Source of the DNA: a virus
DNA: 42,696 nt
Virus record (IMG/VR): IMGVR_UViG_3300046005_001932
Location: 1-42,696 of that record
Strand: one strand, 5' to 3'
The stretch's first letter is position 1. Every line of letters starts with the position of its first letter. The notes below the pieces were generated by a model, which worked only from the letters and a program-made list of their open reading frames with translations, had not been told where the DNA came from and made no database searches. Shown piece by piece: positions 4,930 to 18,663 of the stretch. Position numbers and translations under genes: made by a program.

Positions 4930-5012
4930 TGGTCATCACCTTTCAGGTATTGGATGAAGGCCCCCACGAAGGCCAAGGTCAGCAGTGCGAGGAGAACAGC
5001 GCCCGCGATCAC
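4926..5012 (-). CDS. 28-residue membrane peptide
   Basis: A GTG at 5012 overlaps the upstream stop as GTGA and opens a frame of 28 residues that is nearly all one membrane segment (GAVLLALLTLAFVGAF) ending in a charged KGDDQ tail. The four-base overlap at both ends is the same pattern used throughout this operon, which supports translation. Function unknown. Confidence 0.5.
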   Translation of the reverse strand: MIAGAVLLALLTLAFVGAFIQYLKGDDQ

Positions 5013-5245: not shown

Positions 5246-5646
5246 CCCTCGGCTCCTTCGGCTTTATGGGTGGTGCGGAGGATGGCGATGCACAGGGCGA
5301 GCGCGGGGGTGTTGCCATCCGTCATCACCCGTTCTGCGTTGAACGTTCCGGACCGCTGGACCATCGCCCAGCCGTTGCCGTCGAAGTCGCGCTCGACCAT
5401 GCAGCGACACCCCGGCAGCACCCGTTCCGCCAGAGCGAGGGCAGCGGTGACGCAGGTGGTGTAGCGAGGGGCGTCCCAGCCCGCACCGTTCGGCCCCATC
5501 GTGACCCGCCCGTCTTCCCAGCAGACCAAAAGGGACGTGTCTTTCGCCGCCCATGCCGGGCGCAGGTTCAGGGCACGGTCGATCAGGCTGTCAGATTGAC
5601 GGTCGCCCGCCTCGGCTACCGACAGCCGTGCTAGAAGATCAGTCAT
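5242..5646 (-). CDS. Phage ABA-sandwich-like accessory protein
   Basis: The start was set at the ATG for MTDLLARLSV, giving 134 residues. The pattern of an N-terminal helix, a central DGRVTMGPNGAGWDAPRYT strand region, a TAALALAERVLPG helix and a C-terminal TPALALCIAIL helix resembles phage ABA-sandwich proteins of early accessory regions. The role of this family is unknown. It slightly overlaps the upstream gp6-like gene. Confidence 0.5.
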   Translation of the reverse strand: MTDLLARLSVAEAGDRQSDSLIDRALNLRPAWAAKDTSLLVCWEDGRVTMGPNGAGWDAPRYTTCVTAALALAERVLPGCRCMVERDFDGNGWAMVQRSGTFNAERVMTDGNTPALALCIAILRTTHKAEGAEG

Positions 5647-6010
5647 GTGACGTTCCTTTGGGTTCATCGGCGGAAGGACCGCCGATACCTACAGCGCTTG
5701 CAGTTCTCGCCTTGCGATAGGGTGCGACCCACGCCTCCACGGGACTGAGCGTCATGGTATCGTCACCGCGTTCGTATGCGCGGAGACTGAGCATCAGAAC
5801 GGCGAGCCGAAGCGGCGCAGGCGATGTGCTTGTCAGCGACAAACCAATTTCTGCCTCAACGATGGCGCGTGCCTTGGCTACCAGCCGCTTGATTAGGCTG
5901 TCTTCGTCGCCCGTATGGACCCGAAGAAACAGCTTTGCTTCCGCCAGACTGACAGGCAACGTCTCCACCGCCGCAGGCTGGGTATGGAGCGAAGCGGAAT
6001 GCGCCCTCAT
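5639..6010 (-). CDS. Short gp6-like head-tail connector paralogue in the early operon
   Basis: This 123-residue protein contains VSLAEAKLFLRV followed by DEDSLIKRLVAKARAIVEAE, the helical core of gp6-type head-tail connectors. The phage B structural connector at 24966-25538 has the matching LTTADAKAHLRV and DDDTLIAANVAAARAHVEAR. The early copy lacks the strand-rich middle that follows in the structural protein and is about two thirds the length. Its place in the leftward early operon, coupled by ATGA to the gene above, is abnormal for a structural protein. It may be a domesticated fragment or an interference factor. Confidence 0.6.
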   Translation of the reverse strand: MRAHSASLHTQPAAVETLPVSLAEAKLFLRVHTGDEDSLIKRLVAKARAIVEAEIGLSLTSTSPAPLRLAVLMLSLRAYERGDDTMTLSPVEAWVAPYRKARTASAVGIGGPSADEPKGTSHD

Positions 6011-6357
6011 CCCTCATCTCCACTATTCCTGGTGGCGGTGGCGATGGCGACGCGGGCGCGTAGCCATGCTGCTTCTCGGGTTTTGGTGCCGGTGCCCCTG
6101 TCCAAGTAGTCGAGCGCCTTCGCGGCGACAGGGAGCGCCAGAAGGTCGGTCAACGCCTCCAGCAGTTCAGGAGCGGCGGCTATCAGGCGGGCGTTGGCGG
6201 CGTCGGTGATCGGGTTGTAGGTGGCCAGCCACATATTCTCGTAGCTGGCGCACGCGATAACCTGACGACCGCCCGGACCATAAAGGTCGAAGGTCGATTT
6301 GCCCGGCTCGTATCCCGGCCCGAAATCCCAAGGCCCCGGCGTATGTGCCCCGCTCAT
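6007..6357 (-). CDS. Ea22-like accessory protein
   Basis: The ATG at 6357 overlaps the upstream stop as ATGA and gives 116 residues. The N-terminal HTPGPWDFGPG and the later NARLIAAAPELLEAL segment are hallmarks of Ead/Ea22-type phage accessory proteins. A 16-base stretch encoding LLEA recurs in the neighbouring 440-residue gene, pointing to domain shuffling among these genes. Biochemical role unknown. Confidence 0.6.
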   Translation of the reverse strand: MSGAHTPGPWDFGPGYEPGKSTFDLYGPGGRQVIACASYENMWLATYNPITDAANARLIAAAPELLEALTDLLALPVAAKALDYLDRGTGTKTREAAWLRARVAIATATRNSGDEG

Positions 6358-7676
6358 TGTCCCCCCTCCAGAGCAGTAGCTTTGGCGATGGCGGCGTTGG
6401 CGGCGAGAACCCACGACGGAAGCTGGTCGCTGTCCTCAAGCCTCAAAACGGTATCACGCACAACCGCTTTCAGCGCCTCCAGCAGTTCAGCATTCACCGC
6501 CTCTACAGCCGCTTTTGGTTCACTCGCCTTGCGGCTCGTACCCATCGAGACTGAGGCTGCGGGATCGTCGCGATAATCCGCTGTCGGCCAGCCGTGATGC
6601 CAAGCGAACGCGCAGTAGGCCGCAACATCGAGGGGGTCGCCTTTCTGGACGTGCGCCGCCAAGTCGCGGACGAGGTCGGGATGCCAGTCGTCGGCAAGCC
6701 ATCCGTCGCTGTATCCGTACTTGGCCTCGGCCCGCTCCAGCTTCTCCTTCAGGGCTTTGGCGAACCTGTCGATCAGGTCGGCGGTAGCGGGGTGGAGCGT
6801 TCCGTGGCCCGGCCCGAACCGGGGCAGCGCGCCGCAAATCCGCACCCATCCCGCAAGGGCAGCGTCTCCGCCGTGTGTGTAAATCAGGTCGTTCACCAAC
6901 GCGAGGTCGGTGGCCAGAACACCCGTTCCGTGACCCTCGCCGGGGACGGAAGTAATGCGTTCAAGCACCGACGCCGCGTAGAGGACGTACTTGGCGTGGC
7001 CCTGATTAACTGAGCCGTCAGCGATCTTGGCGGCAATGCTGTCGAGTGTCTTGGCGACGCTGCTAAGATCAACACCGCCGGGAACGGAAGCCGAAGGCTT
7101 TAGTGCGTCCCATGCGGCGCTTGCCCACGACAGTTTCACACCGTCTTTGATGTCGGCCCAGTCGCGGTCGGGATAGGCAACGCGGAACAAGCGTTCGGCG
7201 GCCTCGTACAGCGTCTCACGCTCGGTAGGCATCACGTCAGCCGATGAACCCTTATCTGCTTCGACAAGGCGGAAGGCGATGATGTCGCGGTGGTGACCAA
7301 ACGCTCCAGACTTTTCGTGCTTCCACCAATCGCAGAACGCGGAATACTGGTGCGAGGGCGCGGGTCCGTGTTCCTTGCCGTCGCGATGGCGAGTATCCAC
7401 CACCCGCCCTGGCACCGGGTTCTCCCCTCCGCTCCATGAAATCCAGCCGTCATCACCGCGCTCGCCGACATAAGTCAGGTGTTCAAGCTTGAAGTTTCCG
7501 AGGCCCATAACGGGGTGATCGACGCCGACGCTGGTCGGTTGCATGGCGTCCAAAAAGGTCGCGAGGCCGTTCCAGCGGGTGCCGTCGAAATCCACCCGCA
7601 ACACACTCCGTCCCGCCGTAAGCAACGGCACAAGGTCCGCAGTCAGCGGTCCCGGCTTAACGTCTCTATTGGTCAT
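6354..7676 (-). CDS. 440-residue composite accessory protein
   Basis: This long protein looks assembled from several accessory domains. The N-terminal 130 residues have no clear match. About residues 150-190 contain an ETLYEAAERLFR segment. Residues 290-345 carry a YGYSDGWLADDWHPDL and KGDPLDVAAYCAFAWHHGW region seen in many phage early proteins. The C-terminus has an NAELLEALKAVV helix as in its Ea22-like neighbour. No enzyme signature is clear. It is coupled to the downstream gene and follows the HNH gene after 19 bases. Confidence 0.6.
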   Translation of the reverse strand: MTNRDVKPGPLTADLVPLLTAGRSVLRVDFDGTRWNGLATFLDAMQPTSVGVDHPVMGLGNFKLEHLTYVGERGDDGWISWSGGENPVPGRVVDTRHRDGKEHGPAPSHQYSAFCDWWKHEKSGAFGHHRDIIAFRLVEADKGSSADVMPTERETLYEAAERLFRVAYPDRDWADIKDGVKLSWASAAWDALKPSASVPGGVDLSSVAKTLDSIAAKIADGSVNQGHAKYVLYAASVLERITSVPGEGHGTGVLATDLALVNDLIYTHGGDAALAGWVRICGALPRFGPGHGTLHPATADLIDRFAKALKEKLERAEAKYGYSDGWLADDWHPDLVRDLAAHVQKGDPLDVAAYCAFAWHHGWPTADYRDDPAASVSMGTSRKASEPKAAVEAVNAELLEALKAVVRDTVLRLEDSDQLPSWVLAANAAIAKATALEGGQ

Positions 7677-7695
7677 TGGTCGGCTCCATCTTGGT

Positions 7696-8154
7696 TCATT
7701 CCGCCGACTTCATCGGCTCCATACCCACCGCTCCAGCTTCCCCGCCGGCGGCTTGTCCCTGGTACGCAGCAAAGTGAGCGGCGGCGGTGGCATAGGCGTC
7801 CTTGCCGAGCAGGGCCCAGAACGGCTTTTCACCGATGCGGTGCTGTTCGGCGTGATGGCCGGCGCACAGCGGGTTCCCGTGCCTGTCGTGGTTTTTCACG
7901 CTGCGGCCGAAGCTGTTCGGGATCCCGGCGACGCGGTAGCTGATGTGGGCGTGTTGGACCGGGCCGTCGCAGCCGCCCATGTGGCGGGCCTCGCAGGGCT
8001 GGCGGCGAACGAACTGGCAGAAGCCGTTGTCGCGTTCGCGCCCGCGGTCCGCCTTCGGGCTCTTCGGCCGGGCCCTGGTCGCGGCTTGACGGGCCTCGCG
8101 CTGGATGCGCTTGGCCTCGCTCACGATGGCGCGCTGTTCGGCGGAAAGGGTCAC
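7696..8154 (-). CDS. HNH-type nuclease-like protein (DUF968-like)
   Basis: This 152-residue protein has a basic N-terminal helix, then a Cys/His cluster: FCQF, CDGPVQHAHISYR, and PLCAGHHAEQH. The spacing of the Cys and His residues fits the zinc-bound HNH-like fold of phage DUF968-type proteins that sit beside Bet-type recombination genes, where they may process recombination intermediates. It overlaps the bet stop/start by four bases, so it belongs to the recombination module. Confidence 0.7.
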   Translation of the reverse strand: MTLSAEQRAIVSEAKRIQREARQAATRARPKSPKADRGRERDNGFCQFVRRQPCEARHMGGCDGPVQHAHISYRVAGIPNSFGRSVKNHDRHGNPLCAGHHAEQHRIGEKPFWALLGKDAYATAAAHFAAYQGQAAGGEAGAVGMEPMKSAE

Positions 8155-8900
8155 GCGGCGTCGCCCGGGAAGGCGTCATCGGCCGCAGCGACTTCCTCAA
8201 CCTCGACGGTCTCGGCCTCTTCGGTCGTGAAGGGATAGGCGTCTCCCGCTTCCACGTTGACCGCGGTGAAACCCTCGGCCGTCGCATCGGCTTCCTGCGG
8301 CGCCGCAAGACGAGCGGCCAGGTTCGGAGCCTCGCGCGCCGTCACATCCTGCACGGACATCTGGCGCTCGTATTCGTCCTGCTCGACGATGCCGGAGAAG
8401 CCAAAGGCATAGCGGGCGCACTGGATCATCGCCTTGTGGCGCAGCATCCGGCGCGGCCAAGTCTTCCACACCTCGGTGCCGCGCCGGCACTCGGCCATGT
8501 ATTCGGTGGCCTCAATCGAGCGGCTGCGGTCCTTTCGGTGCATCCGGCAGGTGATGGCGATGATCTCCTCACCCTCGCGCACGTCCTCAAAGTCCATGCC
8601 GTCGAACTGCGGATGGTCATTGATGATCCGGGCCCAGCCGTCGATCGACACGATGGGCTGGATGCCGCCGCCCTTAGCCGGGAAGGCGTAGAGCTCCTTC
8701 GTCATCGGATTCAGGCCGTATTCCTTCGCGACCAGCAGGAACGCGGCGAACTCTTCGCGGGAGACGTTGCCCTTGCAGACGGTGGCGCGAAGGGTCGCCT
8801 CGAAGGCGGCCGGCTCCATCCCATATCGGCCAGACATATCGACCAGGACGGAGCGCGGCTGGCGCTCGGGCAGGGTCACGACGACGGTTTGATCGGTCAT
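8151..8900 (-). CDS. bet: Single-strand annealing protein, Bet/RecT family
   Basis: This 249-residue protein matches Bet-type annealing proteins: KEYGLNPMTKELYAFP, IQPIVSIDGWARIINDHPQF, CRMHRKDRS and a WPRRMLRHKAMIQCARYAFG segment. It would anneal single strands made by the adjacent exonuclease during phage recombination. The last 45 residues are acidic and low-complexity, a common place for partner or SSB binding. The gene follows the exonuclease by two bases in the PL operon. Confidence 0.9.
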   Translation of the reverse strand: MTDQTVVVTLPERQPRSVLVDMSGRYGMEPAAFEATLRATVCKGNVSREEFAAFLLVAKEYGLNPMTKELYAFPAKGGGIQPIVSIDGWARIINDHPQFDGMDFEDVREGEEIIAITCRMHRKDRSRSIEATEYMAECRRGTEVWKTWPRRMLRHKAMIQCARYAFGFSGIVEQDEYERQMSVQDVTAREAPNLAARLAAPQEADATAEGFTAVNVEAGDAYPFTTEEAETVEVEEVAAADDAFPGDAA

Positions 8901-8902
8901 GG

Positions 8903-9841
8903 TCAGGCGGCTTTCCGGTGAGTGTTGTCGTTTGCCTCGGCGGCCTGCAGTTCGAGCTCGGTGTCGATCCGGTTGGCGGCGTATGCGGGGAGAGAGAGGT
9001 AGCTGGCGTCAGGACCGCCCGGCCCCGGCCAGACGCCGGAGTCGAGGCAGCGGGCCATGGTCCGCAGGGCGGCCCGGACCTGCCGGCGCCCGCGCTCGAT
9101 GTCGTCGGGGGTGACCTGGGTGACGCGAACGCAGAACGGATCGGCCTTCTCGACCCAGACAAGGGCGAAAGCTTCCATTTCGACGCCCAGCAAGGCCTCG
9201 GCGGCCATGCCGATGACGGCGCCCTGGATCTGATAGCCGAAGCTGGCCAGCGACTTGGCGAGCGCGTCGTCGGTGACGCTTGGTGTCGTCTTCAGGTCAG
9301 CCATGACGGCCGAGGCGTTCGGGATCACGTCCGGGCGGCTCTTGATCCAGATGCCGGTCTCAGCGTCCTTCCAGATCAGGGACCGCTCGACCTTGCCGTC
9401 GAGGATGCCAGCCTTGACCAGCGGGTGACGGGCGAGGCTTTCGGCCATGCCGGTGACGGTTTCGAGGTCTTCCTCGGTGATGACCGTGCGGCCGGCGAGC
9501 GTCTGTTCATCGCGCCAGGCCTTCGCCTCCTTCGTGCGCCAATCGGACCAGCACTCAGGGCGTACGGCAAACTCCTCGGCCAGCCCTTCCCTGCCCTCCA
9601 GCAGCAGCTTGTGCGCCAGACGGCCGACCGCAAACGCCGGGCTGTCGTCTTGGGGCTTGCGGTTCGGGTTCAGGCTGGACTTCGACCAGAAATGCGCCGG
9701 GCTTTCCGACCAGATCGTGCGCAGCCCGCTGGACGACACCGAGGGGCCGTCGCAAGGCTGGCCGTGATAGCGGTCCATCCCCATGCCGACGAAGATGCCG
9801 GGGGCCGTGATGGTGGCGCCTGTGTATTTGATCTCGATCAT
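8903..9841 (-). CDS. RecE/YqaJ-like exonuclease (PD-(D/E)XK)
   Basis: The product of 312 residues starts at the ATG at 9841, immediately after a possible GTG at 9844. It begins with a YHGQPCDGPSVSSSGLR block typical of RecE-like nucleases, has SRPDVIPNASAVMADLKTT with the Asp and Asp-x-Lys metal site, and GYQIQGA after it. It would degrade one strand of double-stranded ends and hand the other to Bet. The stop lies two bases before bet. Confidence is high because of the paired context. Confidence 0.88.
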   Translation of the reverse strand: MIEIKYTGATITAPGIFVGMGMDRYHGQPCDGPSVSSSGLRTIWSESPAHFWSKSSLNPNRKPQDDSPAFAVGRLAHKLLLEGREGLAEEFAVRPECWSDWRTKEAKAWRDEQTLAGRTVITEEDLETVTGMAESLARHPLVKAGILDGKVERSLIWKDAETGIWIKSRPDVIPNASAVMADLKTTPSVTDDALAKSLASFGYQIQGAVIGMAAEALLGVEMEAFALVWVEKADPFCVRVTQVTPDDIERGRRQVRAALRTMARCLDSGVWPGPGGPDASYLSLPAYAANRIDTELELQAAEANDNTHRKAA

Positions 9842-10050
9842 CACAGCGCCGCCGAAAACAGGCTCGCCGCGATGACGATGCAGCCCAGAATGGCCAGGGC
9901 GATGTGAAAGCCGGAAGGTTCCCGCTCCGGATCAGTGCGGCGGGCGCGCTCGGCCAAATACAGTTCAGCGCGGGCGGCCTCGGTCTTGCGCCATTCGGGG
10001 TTGTCGATCAGGCCGAGCGGGTGCGGGCGGTCAGGTGCAAAATCGGTCAT
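9841..10050 (-). CDS. Small protein with C-terminal membrane segment
   Basis: This 69-residue protein has a charged N-terminal helix (AARAELYLAERARR) and ends in a hydrophobic segment (about residues 48-68) that should anchor it in the membrane. Stop/start overlaps join it to the exonuclease and to the gene upstream. Position among recombination genes might suggest a role in protecting or tethering replication ends, but nothing in the sequence proves it. Confidence 0.55.
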   Translation of the reverse strand: MTDFAPDRPHPLGLIDNPEWRKTEAARAELYLAERARRTDPEREPSGFHIALAILGCIVIAASLFSAAL

Positions 10051-10292
10051 GCTGCGATCTCCTGCGGTGCGGTCGCCTCACGGATGGCAGCGGCCATTTC
10101 GTCAGCGAGGGATTGTTCGATCTTGGCCAGACCGAGACGCGCGGTGAGGCTGCGTTCGTCGTTCTGGCTGAGCTGGTAGGCCGCGTTCATCCGGTGGATG
10201 TTCTCGATCACGCGGGCCTTCAGGATGGTGATCGGCTGATGCTCACGGACGAACACGACGCCGCCCATGGCCAGATACATCGGGGCGCTCAC
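10047..10292 (-). CDS. Hypothetical early protein
   Basis: This 81-residue protein has a short hydrophobic N-terminus (PMYLAMGGVVFV) and then a helical, charged region containing ARVIENIHRMNAAYQLSQ. It overlaps the neighbours by four bases on each side and is the second gene of the PL operon. No family recognised. Confidence 0.55.
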   Translation of the reverse strand: MSAPMYLAMGGVVFVREHQPITILKARVIENIHRMNAAYQLSQNDERSLTARLGLAKIEQSLADEMAAAIREATAPQEIAA

Positions 10293-10585
10293 GCTGCGGC
10301 CCTCAGGCCAAGAGCGCGGGCAGCGCAGCGACGAAAGCGGGCCGCAGCCTCACGGTTTTCGGTGGCCTGAAACTCGCGGCCTTGGGTGTCGTAGTGAGCG
10401 GCCCAGCTTTCCAGACGCTCCGCGAACGCGATCATCTTGGCCGGGTCGGTTTCCTCGACCTCATCGGCGGCGGCCAGAACGGCGCGGAGTTCAGACTTGC
10501 GGGCTTCGGTGCCGACTTCGTTGCACCCGCGCAGCCAGTTGAGCTGGGCGCGGGCTTCGGCCGGAGTGATGTTGACGGCTTGCAT
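10289..10585 (-). CDS. Hypothetical protein, first gene of the PL operon
   Basis: This 98-residue, mainly helical protein is the first gene after promoter PL. A GGGAGAG ribosome site stands just before the ATG at 10585. Features include EARAQLNWLRG near the start and a basic AAARFRRCAARALGLR C-terminus. First position under PL is where lambda puts its antiterminator N, but this protein lacks an Arg-rich N-terminal RNA-binding motif, so I do not assign that role. Confidence 0.6.
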   Translation of the reverse strand: MQAVNITPAEARAQLNWLRGCNEVGTEARKSELRAVLAAADEVEETDPAKMIAFAERLESWAAHYDTQGREFQATENREAAARFRRCAARALGLRAAA

Positions 10586-10608
10586 AGGGCTCTCCCGTTG
10601 TTGGAAGA

Positions 10609-10637
10609 ACTTTATGGGGGAAACTTCCCCTCGTCAA
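10609..10637 (-). promoter_or_regulatory. Promoter PL
   Basis: On the minus strand TTGACG (10637-10632) is followed after 17 bases by TAAAGT (10614-10609). Operator OL1 lies entirely in the spacer, so repressor binding would block RNA polymerase. It drives the leftward recombination-integration operon. Confidence 0.7.
10617..10630. promoter_or_regulatory. Operator OL1
   Basis: GGGGAAACTTCCCC has inverted arms GGGGAA and TTCCCC around two central bases. The same 14-mer is at OL2 and its exact reverse complement is at the Cro-proximal operator, which identifies it as a repressor/Cro site. Confidence 0.8.
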
Positions 10638-10645
10638 CACCAAAA

Positions 10646-10659
10646 GGGGAAACTTCCCC
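10646..10659. promoter_or_regulatory. Operator OL2
   Basis: This is a second copy of the 14-mer GGGGAAACTTCCCC, 29 bases from OL1. It lies just upstream of the PL -35 element and between PL and the HIRAN gene, so it may also control rightward transcription of that gene. Confidence 0.8.
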
Positions 10660-10709
10660 CTGCCCTGTTTAGGGGTCAGCCTGTAGCGTGACGGCACAGG
10701 GAGGACGGT

Positions 10710-11168
10710 ATGAAGCACGGGACAGACCGGCACCGGCCCCAGGGCGACTGGGTGGGCTTCACCAACGCCACCAGCATCGTGGGTGTTTCGATGCGCCGGA
10801 AAGAGGCTGCGGCGTTTGCTGACGCAGTCAGCGAAGCCGAGAGGCATCGGCTGATTTACGGCGTGAATCTTCAGTACGAGCCGAACAACCCGCACGATCC
10901 AAATGCGCTAGCGGTGATCGGCACAGCAGAGTGCAGGGGGTTTTTTGGCGGCAGCAAGACGCGCGAGTGGAAGATCGGATACCTCCCCCGCGAAATCGCC
11001 GCCGAGGTTGTGGGCGAGCTCATCAAGCCCGGACTTCCTGTCGGGATCGAACTATTCTCTGTCTATCGCGGTTCTGGCGGGTACGTCGATTTTAAGGTGA
11101 TCGTCCTAGGGCCACCTGGACACAGTCATTCGGCTCGCCAAAAGCGCAATCCGTCGCAACAGACTTAG
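10710..11168 (+). CDS. HIRAN-domain protein
   Basis: This 152-residue protein is almost wholly a HIRAN domain: SIVGVSMRRKEAAAF, an EPNNPHDPNALAV core and WKIGYLPREIAAEVV. HIRAN domains bind 3' DNA ends or stalled forks and are usually fused to helicases or nucleases; here it is alone. A strong GGGAGGA ribosome site precedes the ATG. It is read divergently from PL across the OL operators and ends tail to tail with the SNase gene, overlapping it by four bases. Confidence 0.75.
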   Translation: MKHGTDRHRPQGDWVGFTNATSIVGVSMRRKEAAAFADAVSEAERHRLIYGVNLQYEPNNPHDPNALAVIGTAECRGFFGGSKTREWKIGYLPREIAAEVVGELIKPGLPVGIELFSVYRGSGGYVDFKVIVLGPPGHSHSARQKRNPSQQT

Positions 11169-11602
11169 CGCGCGCGCCAGACCCACGGATCCTCGAAGGC
11201 TCCCGCCCACACACCCAGCCGCGCCCGTTCGGCCTGTGATTGGTCCGCTGCATAAGCGCCGCCGCTGTACCGACGAAAATCGAGCCCGTGTCCGTTCCGC
11301 ACAAGCCACGACGCCATATCGACACTGCCAACCGCGCATCGCGCGACGATGCGGCGGTAACGGTCAGGCCTCCCTTGTGGCCGGCACGTCACTGTTCGTC
11401 CGCCAATCCAGTTGGACAGGGCGTTAGCAGCCTCGGCGCCACAGCGATACGACAGTCCCTGCCGCTCGCAGGTTTGGCGGCTCTCTGGAGCGTCGGCACC
11501 CCAGAGCCGGATGCGCTGGCCGTGTATCTCAAGAGTGTCGCCATCAATCACGGATGCCCGGCCGACAATAGCGGGGGGTTCCGGTGGCAAGGCTTCCATC
11601 AT
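11165..11602 (-). CDS. Staphylococcal nuclease-like (SNase) protein
   Basis: The ATG at 11602 overlaps the upstream stop and gives 145 residues. The SNase signature is clear: VIDGDTLEIHG, IRLWGADAPE with the catalytic Arg, Asp and Glu, and DRYRRIVARC with the second catalytic Arg; the end has RLGVWAGAF. There is no signal peptide, so it should act in the cytoplasm, unlike secreted nucleases. It is downstream of the repressor and the DUF4177-like gene on the same strand and is probably made in the lysogen. A role against incoming DNA or in host DNA breakdown is possible. Confidence 0.8.
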   Translation of the reverse strand: MMEALPPEPPAIVGRASVIDGDTLEIHGQRIRLWGADAPESRQTCERQGLSYRCGAEAANALSNWIGGRTVTCRPQGRPDRYRRIVARCAVGSVDMASWLVRNGHGLDFRRYSGGAYAADQSQAERARLGVWAGAFEDPWVWRAR

Positions 11603-11799
11603 GCGGCTGGACGGCGATCCCGCCGAAGATAAACGTGGTGGGCCATGCCGTTGAAGCTGGCGTTTATTACCTCCCAGCCGCTTGCTGCAAGTTGATTCAC
11701 GCCCTTGTTGAATGCGGCCTTCCCGACAAAGTCCTCGACCATGTACTCGTAACGCGCGTTCGACGGCGCACCGTCCGGTTCCTTTTTTCCGCCGAACAT
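11599..11799 (-). CDS. DUF4177-like small protein
   Basis: This 66-residue protein contains YEYMVEDF near the start and LAASGWEVINAS near the middle, the pattern of the small DUF4177 family of unknown function. It begins eight bases after the repressor stop and its own stop overlaps the SNase start as ATGA, so the three genes form one transcription unit read from PRM. Confidence 0.65.
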   Translation of the reverse strand: MFGGKKEPDGAPSNARYEYMVEDFVGKAAFNKGVNQLAASGWEVINASFNGMAHHVYLRRDRRPAA

Positions 11800-11807
11800 G
11801 AGCCCTC

Positions 11808-12485
11808 CTAGAACCTGGTGATCTTCGCGATAAGCAGGCCGGTGACTTCGACTTGTAAGTCCGATCCGCTGTCATCGTCCAATCGCACGGGATCCTTCCA
11901 GCGCGGGTTGTTAGACCGCGGCCACAGCACAAGTCCGTCGTCGGTCACCTCGACCTCCTTAAGGGTAATCTCCCGCAATGAGCCATCATCGCGGGCCCGC
12001 GTGACTTCAACGATCATGCCGCTGTTCAGGTTAACGCCAGAGCCAACAATCTCGACTATGTGCGCAAGGTCTCCGGGATAGATGTTGCGGGCGTTCATTG
12101 AGTCGCCCCTTACCTCCCGCAGCCACTGCCGGGCCTGCGGATAGCGCCGGTCTAGTGCGACAGCTATCATTTGCGGCTCATCCTGTCCGCTGTCGTCCAG
12201 GGCCAGCCAGGCGCCAGCTTGCACCGGGCCGACAAGTGGAAGTTCGGCCAGTTTTTCTCCGCCGACCGCGTCCGGCGTTTCGACGCCCGACATCAGCTCA
12301 CCAACCGCCACACCCAAGTGTTCGGCGATCTTCGCCATGGTGTCGCCGCGAGCGTTTTTGCTTTTCCCCGACAGAATATCTCGAACCAGCGTGTCATTGC
12401 TCCCAACGGCACGAGAGAGCGCGCGCGCGGTGGTTCCGCGCTCCTGAATGAGTTGCCGCAGCCGGTCTCGGTCGATCGAAATCAT
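11808..12485 (-). CDS. cI: CI/LexA-type repressor with S24 autopeptidase
   Basis: The start was set at the ATG at 12485 (MISIDRDRLR), giving 225 residues; the upstream extension would read through the operators. An N-terminal HTH spans residues 12-62 (ALSRAVGSNDTLVRDILSGK). An Ala90-Gly91 cleavage site lies in PVQAGAW, the catalytic Ser129 in RGDSMNARNIYPGD and the Lys176 in REITLKEV, so it should self-cleave with RecA during DNA damage. The gene lies beside three operators and likely maintains lysogeny by blocking PL and PR. No ribosome site precedes the ATG, which fits a leaderless message. Confidence 0.92.
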   Translation of the reverse strand: MISIDRDRLRQLIQERGTTARALSRAVGSNDTLVRDILSGKSKNARGDTMAKIAEHLGVAVGELMSGVETPDAVGGEKLAELPLVGPVQAGAWLALDDSGQDEPQMIAVALDRRYPQARQWLREVRGDSMNARNIYPGDLAHIVEIVGSGVNLNSGMIVEVTRARDDGSLREITLKEVEVTDDGLVLWPRSNNPRWKDPVRLDDDSGSDLQVEVTGLLIAKITRF

Positions 12486-12492
12486 GCTGCGG

Positions 12493-12521
12493 ATACTGCC
12501 GCAGGGGGTTATTTCCCCTAA
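12493..12521 (-). promoter_or_regulatory. Promoter PRM for the repressor (leaderless)
   Basis: On the minus strand TTAGGG (12521-12516) and CAGTAT (12498-12493) are 17 bases apart. The expected start of transcription falls at or within a base or two of the repressor ATG. The match to consensus is only moderate. Operator ORa lies in the spacer. Confidence 0.5.
12505..12518. promoter_or_regulatory. Operator ORa (repressor-proximal)
   Basis: GGGGTTATTTCCCC keeps the outer arms of the operator consensus but differs in the left inner bases. It is inside PRM, so binding here would switch off the repressor gene, as lambda OR3 does. Confidence 0.65.
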
Positions 12522-12535
12522 GAGGGATGTTCCCC
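12522..12535. promoter_or_regulatory. Operator ORb (central)
   Basis: GAGGGATGTTCCCC keeps the TTCCCC arm and a weaker left arm. It is between the -35 elements of PRM and PR, where a bound repressor could block PR and touch polymerase at PRM. Confidence 0.6.
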
Positions 12536-12565
12536 TTGACGGCGGGGGAAGTTTCCCCCTATCAA
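12536..12565 (+). promoter_or_regulatory. Promoter PR (leaderless cro)
   Basis: TTGACG (12536-12541) is followed after 18 bases by TATCAA (12560-12565). The transcription start would fall at about 12571-12572, at the Cro-like ATG. Operator ORc fills the spacer. It drives the rightward replication and late genes. Confidence 0.65.
12545..12558. promoter_or_regulatory. Operator ORc (Cro-proximal)
   Basis: GGGGAAGTTTCCCC is the exact reverse complement of OL1 and OL2 and lies inside PR, so it is probably the strongest repressor site of the right operator. Confidence 0.8.
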
Positions 12566-12570
12566 GTGGC

Positions 12571-12792
12571 ATGACCATTGAACAGTTCATTGCCAGGTGT
12601 GACCGCTACTGCAAGGCAGCGGGCGTCTCCCGTGTTTGGCTGTCGAAGCGGTTGTTCGCCGACACAAACCGGCTGTCGGACTTGTCAAGCGGATCGTCGG
12701 ACGTGGGCGTGAAACGCTTAGCGCGCGCCGCGGCTGATCTAGCGGCATTGGAAGCCGCTAACGACACCACACCCCATTCGGAGGCCGCATGA
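12571..12792 (+). CDS. Cro-like regulator
   Basis: This 73-residue protein is encoded divergently from the repressor, beginning right after PR. A helix-turn-helix is likely in [20 protein letters not shown], and a helical Ala-rich tail follows. Size and place fit Cro, the repressor of the lysogenic circuit. There is no ribosome site before the ATG because the promoter -10 element ends only five bases upstream, so it is probably translated from a leaderless message. The stop overlaps the next ATG. Confidence 0.7.
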
Positions 12793-12908
12793 AGCCTCTC
12801 ACCCCATCGCAGCGCGCCGTCCCCTTCCCCCTGCGCGCTGCGGGCCCGGCCGGATATGCCCCCCCGTTCGGTCGGGCCACCCACCCTTTTCACGGAGCCC
12901 GCCTGTGA
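12789..12908 (+). CDS. Possible 39-residue coupled peptide
   Basis: An ATG at 12789 overlaps the cro-like stop as ATGA, and its own stop overlaps the next GTG start as GTGA. The product is Pro/Ala/Gly-rich with a basic start and no recognisable motif. The chain of four-base overlaps argues for translation, at least as a coupling device for the HNH gene, which otherwise would lie 112 bases downstream. Confidence 0.45.
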
Positions 12909-13498
12909 CTGACCACTCCGCCGCGGAGCGTCTTTGCAGCGTCCCTGAATGTGGGGGGCGGCACAAAGGGCGCGGGCTCTGCCAAAGCCACCTGAAGAAG
13001 TTCAAGCGCGGGACTGCGACGGGCTTGCTGGTGCTGCCGTCGACTCACGGTCGCTCCGTCGCCGAAAGGCTGGCGAGCAAGTCCCGTCGAGCCGCTGATG
13101 GCTGTCTGATTTGGACCGGGGTGGTGAACCATCGCGGCTATGGCGGCATCGGCGTGGGGAGCGACAAGAAGCCCGCTCACCGCGTTGCCTACGAGCTCGC
13201 GTTTGGCGAAATCCCCGCTGGGATGCAGGTCTGTCATCGCTGTGATGTTCGTCGCTGCATCGAGCCCTCGCACCTGTTCCTTGGCACCCCAGCCCAGAAC
13301 TCTGCCGATATGGTTGCGAAGAAGCGGCACCCGCGTGGAAGCAGCCGCCCAAATGCCCGCCTGACCGAGGCTGAGGTCGCAGAGGCTAAGCGCCGCGTCA
13401 GAAATGGCGAGCGACCACACATCGTCGCCCGCGACTACGCCTCCGAGCACGGCGTGTTGTCGGCAATCCGTGGAGTTTCCTGGAGGCACGTTCAATGA
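12905..13498 (+). CDS. HNH endonuclease (homing-type)
   Basis: This 197-residue protein starts with GTG. An N-terminal CSVPECGG...[13 protein letters not shown] segment is a zinc-finger-like element. The HNH_3-type core is [16 protein letters not shown] then [19 protein letters not shown], with the expected Cys/His and Asn/His residues, and ends [15 protein letters not shown]-terminal HTH-like helix ([13 protein letters not shown]) is typical of free-standing homing enzymes. Such genes spread on their own and may be a passenger in this early operon. Confidence 0.85.
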
Positions 13499-13722
13499 CC
13501 CGTCACCAGCCGGAGGTGATTTCCACCGCGCATCGGTTGCTTCAAGTCGGCGCCTTTAGGGGCGCTGCAACCATCCTCTTCAATGCCGCTCTGCAGCGTC
13601 AGTCCGCAGAAGTGCGTGACCTGAAGGCTTGGTCGCCGAACGGACCCATGCCGCTGCGCGCCAGCCAGCCACATCTCCACGCCTCGAACGATCACGAACT
13701 CAACTCCCACTTTACCGCCTGA
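13495..13722 (+). CDS. Hypothetical protein
   Basis: This 75-residue protein overlaps the HNH stop by four bases. An N-terminal helical half ([24 protein letters not shown]) is followed by a polar tail. No family recognised. The 67 bases after it contain nothing obvious. Confidence 0.5.
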
Positions 13723-13789
13723 CTTTCGCCCGGCTGACGCCCGCCGTCACCCGGAACCCTAACGTGAACGTCCCCGGAACAAATCCACC

Positions 13790-14203
13790 ATGAACAGCCG
13801 CCGACACGCCCGTCTCGCCCACGACCTGATCGCCGCTTGCGGAGGGCTTGAGGAAGCTGCCCACGCCTGCCGGGTCGGGAAGTCCGCCCTGTCCGACTAT
13901 CAGAACGCCTGTCTGACCAGCTTTATGCCGGCCGACGTGATCTGCGATCTGGAGGCCTATTGCGGGGACGCACTTTACAGCCGCGCGATGACCGAGGCCC
14001 GGCCGTCTGAGCCGACCCGCGGCGATGTGATGGTCGAGACCCACGAAGCGGTGCAAGCCGCCGCTGCCCTTTTGCCCCTGGCTCTGGCCATGCAGCAGGG
14101 AAAGCCCGGCGCCCGCAAGGCGTTCGAGCAAGCTGTCGCCAACCTGCAGTCTGAGGTGGCCGACGTGGAGGCTCTGACCGCTCCCGTGCTGAGGGCTGTC
14201 TGA
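13790..14203 (+). CDS. CII-like phage regulatory protein (CP76 type)
   Basis: This 137-residue protein contains AACGGLEEAAHACRVGKSALSDYQN and FMPADVICDLEAYCGD in series, the pattern of the phage CII/CP76 family, where an HTH is followed by a segment on handling of target sites. It lies downstream of the cro-like gene, where a CII-type regulator belongs. The Ala-rich C-terminal half may form a helical oligomerisation region. It may drive the repressor or integrase gene when lysogeny is established. Confidence 0.65.
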   Translation: MNSRRHARLAHDLIAACGGLEEAAHACRVGKSALSDYQNACLTSFMPADVICDLEAYCGDALYSRAMTEARPSEPTRGDVMVETHEAVQAAAALLPLALAMQQGKPGARKAFEQAVANLQSEVADVEALTAPVLRAV

Positions 14204-14358
14204 TGGCCCTGTTTGCCCTTGCCTATCTGATCACGGGCGGCGCCATGGCCTATTTCTGCGGTGTCCGGTCGCCCCTCGCGGTCTTCATCACGGTGGTGGC
14301 CTGGCCGGTTGTTGCGGCCATCGTCCTTATCGACATCGCCACGGATCGGAACGCCTGA
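14203..14358 (+). CDS. 51-residue two-segment membrane protein
   Basis: The ATG at 14203 overlaps the regulator stop. The product has two hydrophobic segments (about residues 2-19 and 24-45) with almost no loop. Both ends overlap neighbours by TGATG/ATGA signals, so translation is likely. Function unknown. Confidence 0.6.
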   Translation: MALFALAYLITGGAMAYFCGVRSPLAVFITVVAWPVVAAIVLIDIATDRNA

Positions 14359-14549
14359 TGCTGGCCCTGATCCTTCGCCCCATTCGTCGGCGTCAAGCCA
14401 TCAAGGCGCTGTCCGCCCGCTCTGCTGCCGCCGACGAACTCCGCCGCGCCAAGGTGCGGGGCGACACCCGCCGCGCCCATGCCGCCCAGGTCCGTCTGAC
14501 GGCGGCCACGACGGAACTGCTGCGGGCTGAACTGGCGCTGAGCCGATGA
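14358..14549 (+). CDS. Basic helical hypothetical protein
   Basis: This 63-residue protein has a short hydrophobic start and then Arg/Ala-rich helix (AIKALSARSAAADELRRAK). It is coupled to both neighbours through ATGA overlaps. No family recognised; nucleic-acid or membrane association is possible from its charge. Confidence 0.55.
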   Translation: MLALILRPIRRRQAIKALSARSAAADELRRAKVRGDTRRAHAAQVRLTAATTELLRAELALSR

Positions 14550-14707
14550 AGGTCCGCGTCGACACCTGCACCCTTCGCCGGGACGGGCAGTGGCTTGTCA
14601 CCTATCGCGCCACGCCTGGCGCTGCGAGCGCGTCCGCCCTGTCGAGGGTCGAGGTTCCGGTTGGAAAAGACTGCGTCATCAAAGATGGAAAGGTCGTGAA
14701 GTCATGA
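14546..14707 (+). CDS. 53-residue hypothetical protein
   Basis: The ATG at 14546 overlaps the previous stop (ATGA) and the stop overlaps the next ATG. The product looks like a small beta-rich domain: VRVDTCTLRRDGQWLVTYRA and VEVPVGKDCVIKDGKVV. No family recognised. Confidence 0.55.
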   Translation: MKVRVDTCTLRRDGQWLVTYRATPGAASASALSRVEVPVGKDCVIKDGKVVKS

Positions 14708-15270
14708 GCCGCACCTGTCGCTCCGCCTCAGCCGAGGCCAACTTTTGCGGCCGGGCCGTGCATGGCGTGTCCAGTCTGTCGAGCGAGGATCGGCAACAAA
14801 TACTGGCGCACCGGGCACGGGACCGCCCGACGCCGTGGGCCCACCTTTCCGTTCGGTTCAATGTGAACGAGTTGGACTTGCGGGCCATGTTTGAACCCAA
14901 GAACGACAACGCACAGCCGACATCACTCCCGATTGCTGTCTCACGCGATGAAGCAGCCGCCATTAGAGAGGCCCGGTTCCGGGATATGTGGGAGACAGGC
15001 ATCTCGCGGGTAATCATCGCCACACGCCTCGGGCTCGACGTGCCGAGTGTCGACCGGATGCGCCAGCGGCTTGGGCTGACCAAGCGAGGGAGGTCGGCAA
15101 GTCGGTGGGATAGCTGGTCTCAAGCCGAGGACCAATACATCCGGCAGACCTACGGCGCCCGCAAGCAGACTGCCGCACAAGTCGGGGCCTATCTCGGCAG
15201 GACTGCTGCCGCGGTTATCGGACGTGCCCAGCGGGCCGGTCTGAACAGCGCGCAGCAGAGCCGCAAATGA
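14704..15270 (+). CDS. GcrA/SANT-like DNA-binding protein
   Basis: The chosen ATG at 14704 gives 188 residues. Two HTH units can be seen: residues 85-125 (FRDMWETGISRVIIATRLGL) and 137-185, where WSQAEDQYIRQTYG leads to TAAAVIGRAQRAGL. The last block strongly resembles the AVIGKVHRLGL end of the GcrA cell-cycle regulator DNA-binding domain. The C-terminal RNA-polymerase-binding part of GcrA is missing. The protein could steer host CcrM-linked promoters or act as a phage activator. An N-terminal region (residues 1-70) is another possible HTH. Confidence 0.6.
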   Translation: MSRTCRSASAEANFCGRAVHGVSSLSSEDRQQILAHRARDRPTPWAHLSVRFNVNELDLRAMFEPKNDNAQPTSLPIAVSRDEAAAIREARFRDMWETGISRVIIATRLGLDVPSVDRMRQRLGLTKRGRSASRWDSWSQAEDQYIRQTYGARKQTAAQVGAYLGRTAAAVIGRAQRAGLNSAQQSRK

Positions 15271-15620
15271 ACCGGCGCGAGGACTTTCTGGCCAGCAAGA
15301 TCGACCGGAGCCGCGAGGCGCCCAAGTCCAAGCTGGCCCGCGACGCCCGCCGGTCATTCCTGCGCGCCACGGCCCGCGAAAACATCGCCGCGATGATTGC
15401 CGACCTCGAGTCCCAGGATCGCGCCGCCATCCTTTGCGACACGCTGGACATGGTCGCGGAAAGCCTGCGCCTGTGTGTCTCCCCGTCTGACGCCATGACC
15501 GCCTTCTCAAGCCGGGCGGCTGACATCGGGGCCAGCCTGAAACTGCCGAGGGCCATCGCAAGCGCCCGGGCAGAGCAACTGTTTGCCCCAAAGGCTGCGA
15601 ATGATCGGGAGGACGCATAG
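15267..15620 (+). CDS. Hypothetical helical protein
   Basis: This 117-residue protein is Ala/Arg/Ser-rich and mostly helical: a basic N-terminus (RREDFLASKIDRSREAPK), a middle AAMIADLESQDRAAILCDTL helix and a C-terminal AIASARAEQLFAPK. It is coupled to the DnaA-like gene below. Position in the replication module suggests a replication or regulatory role, with no direct evidence. Confidence 0.55.
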   Translation: MNRREDFLASKIDRSREAPKSKLARDARRSFLRATARENIAAMIADLESQDRAAILCDTLDMVAESLRLCVSPSDAMTAFSSRAADIGASLKLPRAIASARAEQLFAPKAANDREDA

Positions 15621-15940
15621 TGTCCGACACCACTCCTACAGGTCAGACGCGGGAGATTATCCGCGAGGTTGCCGAGCGCCACGGCCTGACCGTTCGCTGC
15701 CTTGAGGGCCAGCGCAAGACCCACGCCTTCGCGGTGGTCCGACAGGCGGCATACGCCGAGGTTCGCGCCCGCCGGCCGCATCTTGCCCTCTGCGCCATTG
15801 GCAAGGCTTTCGGTGGCCGGGACCGCACCACGATCCTGCACGGCATTCGCACCCATGAAGCCCGCATGGCGTGGGCGGAGATCCTGATTGCTTTGGGGCA
15901 GGGCAGCTATCAGCCCGACCTCTTCGCGAGGGCCGCATGA
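15620..15940 (+). CDS. Stand-alone DnaA domain IV-like protein
   Basis: This 106-residue protein starts at a GTG overlapping the upstream TAG stop. It carries the DnaA C-terminal domain pattern: VAERHGLTVRCLEGQRKTH, VVRQAAYAEVRARRPHLAL, and IGKAFGGRDRTTILHGIR, the last being the DnaA-box recognition signature. The AAA+ part of DnaA is absent. It may bind DnaA boxes to help phage origin firing or to interfere with host initiation. It precedes the O-like replication gene by overlap. Confidence 0.8.
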   Translation: MSDTTPTGQTREIIREVAERHGLTVRCLEGQRKTHAFAVVRQAAYAEVRARRPHLALCAIGKAFGGRDRTTILHGIRTHEARMAWAEILIALGQGSYQPDLFARAA

Positions 15941-16620
15941 GCGCCGTCGCATTCATCCGGGGAATGATGGACGCCGGGTTTTCGGCCGACGAAGCCCTGC
16001 GCGCTGCCGAGGTCTTTGAGGCCACGGTTTCCGGCATGGCGCCGGTTGAGCCCGCTGCGTCAAAGGCGGCGCTTCGCACCCGGCGCTGGCGTGAGCGTCA
16101 AGCGTCACCGACCGTCACAGAACGTCACGAAACGTCACAGAACGTCACGGCGTCACAAAACCCGTCCCCCTCCCCGTCCCCCCCAGACCCCCCCTACCCC
16201 GCCCCCATCCGCGAAGAGATATATCCCACGCGCGAGGCGAAGCCGACGAACACCGAGATTGCCAGAGGTTTTCTGGCGTTCTGGTCGGCCTATCCCCGAA
16301 AGAAATCCAAGGATGCGGCGGCCAAGGCGTTTGCCTCGGCGATGAAGCGCATCCCCGACCCCGACCCGCTGGCGGTGATCCTGGCCGGACTGGAGCGGGC
16401 CATGCCCGGCTGGGACGAGCCAACCTTCATCCCCTACCCCGCCTCCTGGCTGAACGCCGGGGGCTGGGACGACGAGGCCCCATCACCCCGAACCGGAACC
16501 CGCCATGACCGCCCTGCAAACGACGCCCGAGCCGAAGCCCGATCCGTCTGGTCTGACATCATTGCCGACAGCGACGGCCCGCGAACTGGTCCGCCAGAAC
16601 CCCTCCGGCTTGCGGGCTGA
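15937..16620 (+). CDS. Phage replication initiator (O-like)
   Basis: The start at 15937 overlaps the previous stop and yields 227 residues. The N-terminal third is helical and ends in a basic RTRRWRERQ. A Pro-rich linker (about residues 70-95) is encoded by the iteron and C-rich tract. The C-terminal FWSAYPRKKSKDAAAKAFASA and FIPYPASWLNAGGWDDE are hallmarks of phage replication proteins that load the host helicase. The layout with iterons inside the gene copies lambda O and its origin. Confidence 0.75.
   Translation: MSAVAFIRGMMDAGFSADEALRAAEVFEATVSGMAPVEPAASKAALRTRRWRERQASPTVTERHETSQNVTASQNPSPSPSPPDPPYPAPIREEIYPTREAKPTNTEIARGFLAFWSAYPRKKSKDAAAKAFASAMKRIPDPDPLAVILAGLERAMPGWDEPTFIPYPASWLNAGGWDDEAPSPRTGTRHDRPANDARAEARSVWSDIIADSDGPRTGPPEPLRLAG
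16103..16156 (+). repeat. 10-bp CGTCAC iterons, candidate replication origin
   Basis: CGTCAC occurs at 16103, 16113, 16123, 16133 and 16143, exactly ten bases apart, and again at 16151. Several copies extend to RAACGTCAC. Ten is not a multiple of three, so the repeats pass through all three reading frames and the protein does not repeat. A pyrimidine-rich tract almost free of G follows to about 16206. Confidence 0.65.
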
Positions 16621-16978
16621 GTGCGCGGCGGCCCTGCGGATGGTCGAGCCGATCCGGCCCGAGGTGTTCGCGGTCGAGTTCGAGCGAATGTTGGTCCACT
16701 ACTGGCACGGGGCCCTGTCCGTGGCCGAGGGCCGGGTGCTGCGGGCCGATTGGCTGCGCCTGCTGGGCCACCTGCCGGCGGACCTGATGCGGGAGGGCGT
16801 GGACCGCTACCTGCTGTCCACCAACCGCCACAAGCCGACGCCGGGCGTGTTCCTCGAGTTGGTCGCGGCCGACTTGCGCTATCGGCAGGCCTTGGCCAAG
16901 CGGGCGAACGAAACGCTGGCCCTGCTGACCGCTGCCAACGACTCCCCTGCTCCTGCTCAGAGGGGAGCGGCAGCATGA
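16505..16978 (+). CDS. Hypothetical replication-module protein
   Basis: This 157-residue protein starts 116 bases before the end of the replication initiator gene, in another frame. The N-terminal 30 residues are Pro/Thr-rich; the remainder is helical and includes LRADWLRLLGHLPADLMREG and RYLLSTNRHKPTPGVFLELV. Position after an O-like gene matches helicase-loader genes such as lambda P, but I see no ATPase motif. A later internal Met (16640) would avoid most of the overlap and remains possible. Confidence 0.6.
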   Translation: MTALQTTPEPKPDPSGLTSLPTATARELVRQNPSGLRAECAAALRMVEPIRPEVFAVEFERMLVHYWHGALSVAEGRVLRADWLRLLGHLPADLMREGVDRYLLSTNRHKPTPGVFLELVAADLRYRQALAKRANETLALLTAANDSPAPAQRGAAA

Positions 16979-17652
16979 AGGTTCTCATCGGTTGTGAGTC
17001 TTCTGGCGTCGTGCGTCGCGCCTTCGCGGCCCGGGGGCACGATGCTTGGTCCTGCGACCTCCTGCCGTCCGAGGATGGTTCAAACCACCACATTCGCGGC
17101 GACATCCGCGACCACCTGAACGACGGATGGGACTTGCTCGCAGTGATGCACCCGCCCTGCACCCGGCTTTGCAATTCCGGAGTTCGGTGGCTTGCGGTTC
17201 CGCCTCCGGGGAAGACTGTCGAGCAGATGCAGGCCGACCTTGAGGCCGGAGCCGCTCTTTTCTCGGCCTGCTGGAACGCTCCGATTGACCGGATCGCCGT
17301 CGAAAACCCGGTAATGCACAAACACGCCAAGGCGCTGATCGAAAACTATCAGCCGGCGGTCCAGACCGTGCAGCCGTGGTGGTTCGGCGAGCCTGCGTTC
17401 AAGGGAACAGGGCTGTATCTCCGCGGGCTTCCTTCGCTGGTTCCCACAAACCGCCTGACGCCGCCGCGGCCGGGTACGCCAGAACACAAGTCGTGGTCGG
17501 CGATTCACCGCGCCCCGCCAGGCCCTAACCGGTGGTCAATCAGGTCCCGGACATTTCAGGGGATCGCTGACGCCATGGCAGATCAGTGGGGGCGCCCGCT
17601 CAGCCAAGCCGAAAGTGAAGAACAGCAAGACCTTTTTGGAGCCGCCGCATGA
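16975..17652 (+). CDS. Cytosine-C5 methyltransferase-like protein
   Basis: The start at 16975 gives 225 residues. A motif I-like segment (VLIGCESSGVVRRAF), an AWSCDLLPSE follow-up, a VMHPPCTRLCNSG loop with the catalytic Pro-Cys, and IAVENP resembling the ENV motif are seen in order. The protein is short and lacks the usual target-recognition domain and C-terminal motifs, so whether it methylates DNA alone is uncertain. It may guard phage DNA against host restriction. The gene overlaps both neighbours by four bases. Confidence 0.75.
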   Translation: MKVLIGCESSGVVRRAFAARGHDAWSCDLLPSEDGSNHHIRGDIRDHLNDGWDLLAVMHPPCTRLCNSGVRWLAVPPPGKTVEQMQADLEAGAALFSACWNAPIDRIAVENPVMHKHAKALIENYQPAVQTVQPWWFGEPAFKGTGLYLRGLPSLVPTNRLTPPRPGTPEHKSWSAIHRAPPGPNRWSIRSRTFQGIADAMADQWGRPLSQAESEEQQDLFGAAA

Positions 17653-18527
17653 CCAGCAAATCCGCCCGCCGCCGGAAACACGCCCGGCCCTCAATGCCGC
17701 GGATGATAGGGGCGAACGACAACGTCCCCGGTGCGAATGACAACGAGCTGGTGGTGGTTGGGGGCGTGACCCTGACTGCCCGCCTGAGCGCGGTGTTCCG
17801 CCGGGCGGAGAAGGACATCGCGGCTGTTTTGGTCGACAAGGCCGGCGAGCCGGTCAGGTTGGCGAACGGCGACCCGGCACCCAACACCGTCCGGCGTCGC
17901 GAGGGGCAACAGGCCCTCATGGAGATCGAGCTCGCAATCACTGAGGATCTGGACGCGAAGCGAATGCAGGCCGTCCGTACTGAGATCGCCCAGCTTGAGA
18001 AGCGTCGCGGCTACGAGATCACCGAGACCAGGCTCCGCGATCGGCCGGGACAGGAGGGAATCGAATACCGGATCAGGCGTGACGGCCTGTCGACGCTGGC
18101 CTCTGCCGGTGGTCTGGGCGATCCCGTCGAGACGAAGCGCCTGATGGCCGCGGCCCTCCGCTACCGTGCAGACCATGAGCGGATAGACCCGGAGAGCCGC
18201 CTGACCCCGCCTACCCTCATGCGTGAAGGCCGAGGCGGTGGTGGGGACGGATACGCCGACAAGGTCGCCCAAAGCTGGGACCGGGTTCGGGCCATCCACC
18301 TGATGATCGCTGGCGTGGAGCCGTCCCTGGACCCCACGCGTCGCCCGAATATGCCGAACCTGCCCGCCCGGCACCCCGCCATGCAGGCGATCTGGGTTCT
18401 GCAGGAGGTGGCTGGCAAGGGGGCGAACCTGCGGGAACTGTCGAACAGCGGTTCGGTGATTGACCGGATGTCGAAGCAGTTGGTTCAGGCGCTGGGTGTG
18501 GCCGCTGTCGTCTATGGACTCGACTGA
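17649..18527 (+). CDS. Late-position hypothetical protein (possible regulator)
   Basis: This 292-residue protein is basic and Pro-rich at the N-terminus (MTSKSARRRKHARPS), has a GANDN repeat, a helical coiled region (AVRTEIAQLEKRRGYEIT) and a C-terminal helical region containing AIHLMIAGVEPS. It is the last gene before the packaging module, where lambdoid phages encode late antiterminators. I do not recognise the family and see no RNA-polymerase or zinc motif. Confidence 0.55.
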   Translation: MTSKSARRRKHARPSMPRMIGANDNVPGANDNELVVVGGVTLTARLSAVFRRAEKDIAAVLVDKAGEPVRLANGDPAPNTVRRREGQQALMEIELAITEDLDAKRMQAVRTEIAQLEKRRGYEITETRLRDRPGQEGIEYRIRRDGLSTLASAGGLGDPVETKRLMAAALRYRADHERIDPESRLTPPTLMREGRGGGGDGYADKVAQSWDRVRAIHLMIAGVEPSLDPTRRPNMPNLPARHPAMQAIWVLQEVAGKGANLRELSNSGSVIDRMSKQLVQALGVAAVVYGLD

Positions 18528-18600
18528 ACAAAAGCCCCCTTGCGAAACGGAACGAACAAGGCGACACATCACTAACAGGGCGCTTCGCGTCCAAACCGGC

Positions 18601-18625: not shown

Positions 18626-18663
18626 TGTCGTTTCTGCCCCGGACTGTGTCGGAGCCTACGGGT

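Follow-up and report, generated by a model that had tools for sequence, protein, structure and literature searches.

Candidate operators of a probable immunity region

Does IMG/VR virus record IMGVR_UViG_3300046005_001932 carry a phage switch laid out like that of lambda, and what sequence would its repressor read? The question is raised by positions 10609 to 12565 of a stretch of 42,696 nucleotides (positions 1 to 42,696 of that record, analyzed whole and called here the window), where a CI-like repressor gene and a small Cro-like gene stand divergently beside copies of a GGGGAA-N2-TTCCCC palindrome. A first-pass annotation had described a lambda-like switch, and this reading is supported in outline. 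From sequence comparison, we conclude with high confidence that the region is a switch of the lambda type whose operator specificity is its own, and that the repressor would act at GGGGAA-N2-TTCCCC.

The exact 14-mer GGGGAANNTTCCCC occurs three times in the whole window, with no further copy. It reads GGGGAAACTTCCCC at the two sites on the PL side, OL1 (10617 to 10630) and OL2 (10646 to 10659), and appears as the reverse complement GGGGAAGTTTCCCC at ORc (12545 to 12558), an arrangement that had been claimed beforehand and that the window scan confirmed. Against these three copies, the palindrome was present in none of 300 dinucleotide shuffles. The window has 16 perfect palindromes of the 6-2-6 type, among which GGGGAA is the sole half-site seen more than once, and a triple of any half-site turned up in 1 of 200 shuffles. 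Two further sites, ORa (GGGGTTATTTCCCC, 12505 to 12518) and ORb (GAGGGATGTTCCCC, 12522 to 12535), have two mismatches each, which brings to five the operator-like sites located (two at PL and three between the repressor and the cro-like gene, as proposed); none of them is assigned a strand.

Similar palindromic sites overlap all three promoters of the region, of which PR and PRM were placed by eye. PL (TTGACG-17-TAAAGT, 10609 to 10637, minus strand) is the sole promoter-like match of a consensus scan between 9800 and 13900; OL1 fills its spacer, and OL2 is upstream of its -35, at a distance of 29 bp from OL1. PR (TTGACG-18-TATCAA, 12536 to 12565, plus strand; -35 at 12536 to 12541, -10 at 12560 to 12565) holds ORc in its spacer, and both its TTGAC and this spacer operator are kept in the relatives described below. 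PRM (12493 to 12521, minus strand) combines a very weak -35, TTAGGG at 12521 to 12516, with a -10 of CAGTAT at 12498 to 12493. ORa covers the PRM spacer and part of the -35, and ORb abuts the -35, with its centre 43.5 bp upstream of the A in the repressor ATG. The predicted placement of OL1 in the PL spacer, ORc in PR, ORa in PRM and ORb between them is thus borne out. It follows the site order of lambda with an unrelated motif, the lambda operator consensus having no match in the window at up to three mismatches.

In the window as in each of the six relatives (7/7), the PRM -10 stands 7 nt before the repressor ATG, and the cro-like ATG of the window is 5 nt past the PR -10. The PRM transcript is probably leaderless, and the two distances together suggest that the transcripts from PRM and PR would both be leaderless or nearly so.

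Repressor and Cro-like protein

The repressor gene (11808 to 12485, minus strand) codes for 225 amino acids with the Pfam domains HTH_26 (residues 8 to 66) and Peptidase_S24, and its product matches PHROG 4, transcriptional repressor. A90, G91, S129 and K176 are invariant in the repressors of the window and the six relatives (7/7); we take the first two to be the expected cleavage pair and the last two to be the catalytic pair, as known for the family. A profile search of Protein Data Bank sequences found no match, and a fold search was used in its place. The structure model, with a predicted local distance difference test (pLDDT) score of 81, matched LexA (Z 14.5) and the lambda repressor, the latter with Z 14.3 for the C-domain and Z 10.1 for the full chain (root mean square deviation 7.3 over 188 residues). 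In this model the recognition helix spans residues 33 to 39, with SNDTLVRDI at residues 29 to 37. The best match in a named phage is the CI of Sinorhizobium phage phi3LM21 (35.7% over 94%).

The first gene of the PR operon (12571 to 12792, plus strand), divergent from the repressor gene across an intergenic region of 85 bp, codes for a 73-residue protein with no Pfam or PHROG match. Its model has four helices (residues 3 to 17, 21 to 29, 34 to 40 and 47 to 66) in the order of a helix-turn-helix (HTH) protein, and gave weak fold matches to XRE-type proteins, including the N-domains of lambda CI and P22 c2. Judging from its place and fold, this small HTH-like protein probably acts as Cro. Gene order, promoter overlap and the pairing of an S24 repressor with a divergent HTH-like protein all fit the lambda-like reading.

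Conservation of the candidate operators in relatives

If the palindromes are operators of this repressor, they should be found beside its close homologs, a check that was set beforehand and that did not refute the reading. Profile searches gave 61 loci, 60 from viral contigs and one from a Brevundimonas genome. Three pairs of loci are duplicates (L014 and L018, L015 and L026, L016 and L045). The N-terminal domain of the window's repressor is shared by 6 of the 61 (L018, L019, L020, L021, L026 and L037), with 41 to 50 of 65 to 66 residues identical. The sites are kept in the same places in all six of these distinct relatives: each has two operators at PL, spaced by 29 bp, with OL1 inside the promoter spacer, and further sites in a divergent region of 87 to 88 bp.

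The motif is exact in four (L019, L020, L021 and L026), and the other two have variants: GGGGA-C(A/G)C(A/G)-TCCCC in L018, whose helix reads TNETLIRD, and GGTGAA-N2-TTCACC in L037, whose helix reads GNDHLVRD. We had considered the change of Thr32 to His in L037 as the cause of the change from G to T at position 4, and dropped it, as this is a single case and L042 has T with Thr32. The commonest form of the operator among the relatives is the 16-mer GGGGGAANNTTCCCCC; the centre of ORb is often 1 bp (GGGGAA-N-TTCCCC), and degeneracy is greatest at ORa. OL and OR are as close as 0.79 kb in relatives and as far apart as 1.9 kb in the window, because the genes between the repressor and PL vary and may be missing altogether; in L019 and L020 the operators come within about 10 bp after the repressor gene.

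Other searches added no relative of this kind. A scan of viral contigs with the N-domain alignment returned the same six, a repressor search of genome contigs gave no relative in 43 stretches, and megablast of positions 1 to 20000 of the window against phages found nothing. A second genome search gave 1 of 119, in Brevundimonas viscosa (L017), with another N-domain and another operator. The N-domain alignment found nothing in 398 genomes of the Brevundimonas order among at most 15 candidates scored per genome in the matches listed, a result that is not informative on absence.

Operator type and the DNA-binding domain

The loci with another N-terminus provide a comparison of the opposite kind. 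Fifteen of them have a C-domain score above 500, about as close as that of the relatives, and none of the 15 has GGGGAA-N2-TTCCCC sites (at up to two mismatches upstream and up to one downstream). Thirteen of the 15 share the N-domain type ALAKKAGVAPTTITRPLND or one close to it, and in all 13 an exact GTGCA-N4-TGCAC stands upstream of the repressor, while one exact and one one-mismatch copy lie downstream, 25 bp apart. These loci (L017, from B. viscosa, L022, L024, L025, L027 to L030 and L032 to L036) amount to about 11 distinct ones, since L017 and L028 are apparently one prophage and L032 is nearly identical to L033. GTGCA-N4-TGCAC was found in none of the six relatives with a similar HTH, and GGGGAA-N2-TTCCCC at up to one mismatch in none of the 13; L023 and L031, the other two of the 15, have neither operator type. 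This split of GGGGAA and GTGCA sites by N-domain argues that it is the DNA-binding domain, and no other part of the repressor, that the operator type follows, as in a natural domain swap.

Residue 35 and the third base of the half-site

Two further scans brought the collection to 120 distinct repressors, among which 27 with a related recognition helix were selected (14 by pattern and 13 by eye from a looser listing). A palindrome search without preset motif, with a score cut-off of 7 that was our own choice, found a repeated-palindrome operator family in 25 of the 27, mostly with a GGGA-N4-TCCC core: half-site positions 4 to 6 read GGA in 23 of the 25, and positions 3 to 6 read GGGA in 20. As a control, 716 scans of the same contigs gave 130 finds, none with GGA or GGGA. 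The 93 other repressors gave 21 finds, one with GGA (L120) and none with GGGA.

Within the 25 families, Arg at residue 35 goes with G at half-site position 3 (21/21), and His or Asn with T or C (4/4). This is the strongest of 63 residue-by-base pairs and was reached in none of 2000 permutations; the Fisher value of 8e-5 treats the sequences as independent and so overstates the case. In the repressor tree, the non-Arg35 state needs two changes, both forced by well-supported branches, so that the covariation rests on two independent events. The neatest near pair is L125 (Asn, GTTGGA) beside L126 and L166 (Arg, GTGGGA and ATGGGA). With sites that follow its recognition helix in this way, the repressor very probably binds GGGGAA-N2-TTCCCC.

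On balance, we favor the view that these repressors form a CI-like group, found mostly on uncultured phage contigs, nearly all of which would read a GGGA-N4-TCCC core and whose operators we have not found described. In this group Arg35 would specify G at the third base and His or Asn would move it to T or C, and new immunity types would also arise when the N-domain and every operator copy are exchanged as a unit within an otherwise retained switch. For many temperate phages outside the enterobacteria no operator is known, and here comparison by itself yields candidate operators for about 25 distinct phages, with a clean natural contrast of two operator types following the repressor N-domain. 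Operator types also predict immunity groups, and with them which of these phages ought to exclude one another, and the residue-to-base rule is small enough for a handful of gel shifts.

Several observations weigh against the lambda-type reading. At the locus itself, the PR and PRM hexamers fail the consensus scan, ORb fits a 2-bp centre poorly and is irregularly spaced, and two OL sites were found where lambda has three. A scan of the window at up to three mismatches gave 26 matches against 27 expected, so that ORa and ORb taken alone are not shown to be above chance; they were accepted as sites because the relatives have sites at both places. Among the other loci, L042 has one one-mismatch site downstream and L050 one two-mismatch site upstream, despite their distant HTHs, and L135 and L205, which belong to the 27, gave no operator and were omitted from the residue test. 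The palindrome score alone reaches the cut-off at 136 of 540 random places. Because random places reach it so often, single distant loci are weak and the score alone was rejected as proof for them; the weight rests on the common sequence. As for the Cro-like protein, its structural matches are weak (best Z 7.6; best Foldseek E 0.35), and it has no sequence match in the phage collection.

Proposed mechanism and alternatives

We propose that the region is a temperate phage immunity region built as in lambda, in which a dimer of the CI-like repressor would sit on GGGGAA-N2-TTCCCC. Bound at OL1 and ORc, it would lie between the -35 and the -10 and shut off the early operons of PL and PR. At ORb, which adjoins the weak -35 of PRM, it would be placed to activate its own promoter, while at ORa, the most degenerate site, it would close PRM once its concentration is high. 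Induction would follow from DNA damage, with RecA stimulating the repressor to cleave itself at A90-G91. Binding, the order of affinity, PRM activation, cooperativity or looping and SOS cleavage are steps that we infer from the repressor family.

There is some room, short of an even chance, for a switch with the same layout and another logic, in which the repressor only represses, neither activating PRM nor binding cooperatively nor looping the DNA, and the small HTH-like protein has a role other than that of Cro. The placement of PRM by eye, the pair of OL sites and the irregular ORb would agree with such a scheme. Activation of PRM is favored by ORb itself, which adjoins the PRM -35 in the window, has a counterpart there in the relatives, and is near the place of lambda OR2, at -42. 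A repressor without cooperative binding has a reported precedent in that of phage 933W (PMC3317979).

It is far less probable that the palindromes are the target of another regulator, be it the Cro-like protein alone or a host factor, with the repressor acting elsewhere. Relatives keep a Cro-like protein next to the sites, with 47 to 77% identity to that of the window, and this protein could be their true ligand. Nevertheless, the sites track the recognition helix of the repressor, through residue 35 and position 3, and vanish when the N-domain is replaced. A host factor would have little reason to follow the phage repressor. A comparison by eye of the Cro-like helix with the operator changes gave no clear covariation, and in L018 this helix is the same as that of the window at residues 31 to 35 though the operator differs. 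Least probable of all, and very nearly dismissed, is the idea that the palindromes serve chiefly as RNA hairpins (terminators or attenuators) or are runs of G and C that arose by chance in a GC-rich phage: the OL2 palindrome did score as terminator-like and the window has a GC content of 61 to 67%, but shuffling did not produce the exact site, OL1 and ORc lie between the -35 and the -10 and hence upstream of the transcript of their own promoter, and spacing and sequence of the sites are kept in all six relatives.

Comparison with known systems

As judged by sequence, the preferred lambda-type switch is a system of an ordinary kind; its operator specificity is new, and the support that comparison gives it is unusually good. 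With the lambda immunity region it shares the gene order, the divergent repressor and small HTH gene, the operators inside PL and PR, a weak site over PRM and a repressor of the self-cleaving type, cleavage being here predicted from the domain. It differs in that its operator sequence is unrelated and its repressor was matched to lambda CI by fold only. Lambda has two sets of three operators about 2.3 kb apart (PMC5880393), compared with an OL-OR distance of about 1.9 kb in the window.

Rhizobium phage 16-3 offers, for comparison, an alphaproteobacterial temperate phage switch with several operators on both sides. The 16-3-type operator is ACAA-N4-TTGT, a motif with no exact match in the window. 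A survey of Sinorhizobium prophages lists oL1, oL2, oR1 and oR2 for the C repressor of 16-3, and reports that neither lambda nor 16-3 operators were found, leaving the point open (PMC12429752).

Phage phi3LM21 has, like the window, an annotated CI repressor adjoining a Cro-like protein, but with another HTH and no GGGA-N4-TCCC in the 7.7 kb analyzed. Beside the repressors of phi3LM21, RHph_N28_2, Mae-JY35 and plasmid pPR6, all with differing HTHs, the search gave no operator family; a single GGGA-N4-TCCC lies elsewhere in the RHph_N28_2 stretch, away from the repressor. A literature search on operator, repressor and prophage, in which most subscription papers were outside the coverage, gave no title or visible abstract describing a GGGGAA-N2-TTCCCC operator.

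The covariation reasoning has counterparts in other families, with the Arg35-G3 pairing being found here. Hall, Lefevre and Cordes reportedly correlated recognition helix and operator in lambdoid Cro proteins. For the LacI family, work on covariation between recognition helix and operator is described in PMC2978694.

Neighboring genes and other observations

On the PL side, the first gene of the operon (10289 to 10585, minus strand) codes for 98 amino acids with no Pfam or PHROG match, and an exonuclease VIII-like gene (DUF3799) lies at 8903 to 9844. Between the repressor and PL, positions 10660 to 11807 form a variable cargo stretch with a HIRAN-domain gene (10710 to 11168, plus strand), an open reading frame with a Staphylococcal-nuclease domain (11165 to 11932, minus strand) and one of 66 amino acids (11599 to 11799, minus strand). 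Downstream of PR, a small protein (15620 to 15940) carries the C-terminal HTH domain of DnaA (Bac_DnaA_C).

In five of the six relatives, the exceptions being L018 and the window itself, the PL transcript would open with a structured leader (L019, 6738 to 6860; L020, 6727 to 6850; L021, 7018 to 7140; L026, 7691 to 7805; L037, 7453 to 7565). A long stem, GTCCGCACCGG/CCGGTGCGGAC, surrounds an inner stretch and is followed by a conserved GAGCGT before the first ATG. RNAalifold paired 17 positions, three of them with two-sided changes, and there was no Rfam match; this leader is perhaps a nut/put-like antitermination element.

Two tyrosine integrase genes lie near opposite ends of the window (2900 to 4033 and 41049 to 42188, both on the minus strand). 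The large terminase subunit (19630 to 21171) shares about 57% identity with its counterparts in coliphages HK022 and HK542, in contrast to the repressor and the Cro-like protein, which have no close relative in a named phage.

A search with DNA only for doublets of the motif gave 10 stretches from other viruses. In the four inspected (L002, L003, L007 and L010) no such repressor lies beside the sites, and these carriers were treated as unrelated. Doublets similar to TTGGGGAATATTCCCCAA and exactly 27 bp apart occur in L001, L004, L005 and L007, all from record IMGVR_UViG_3300021958_000157, and also in L006, L008 and L009. That record has eight doublets in the stretches fetched, those of L007 largely between the longer open reading frames, and the 27-bp doublets resemble a control element that an unrelated virus carries in several copies.

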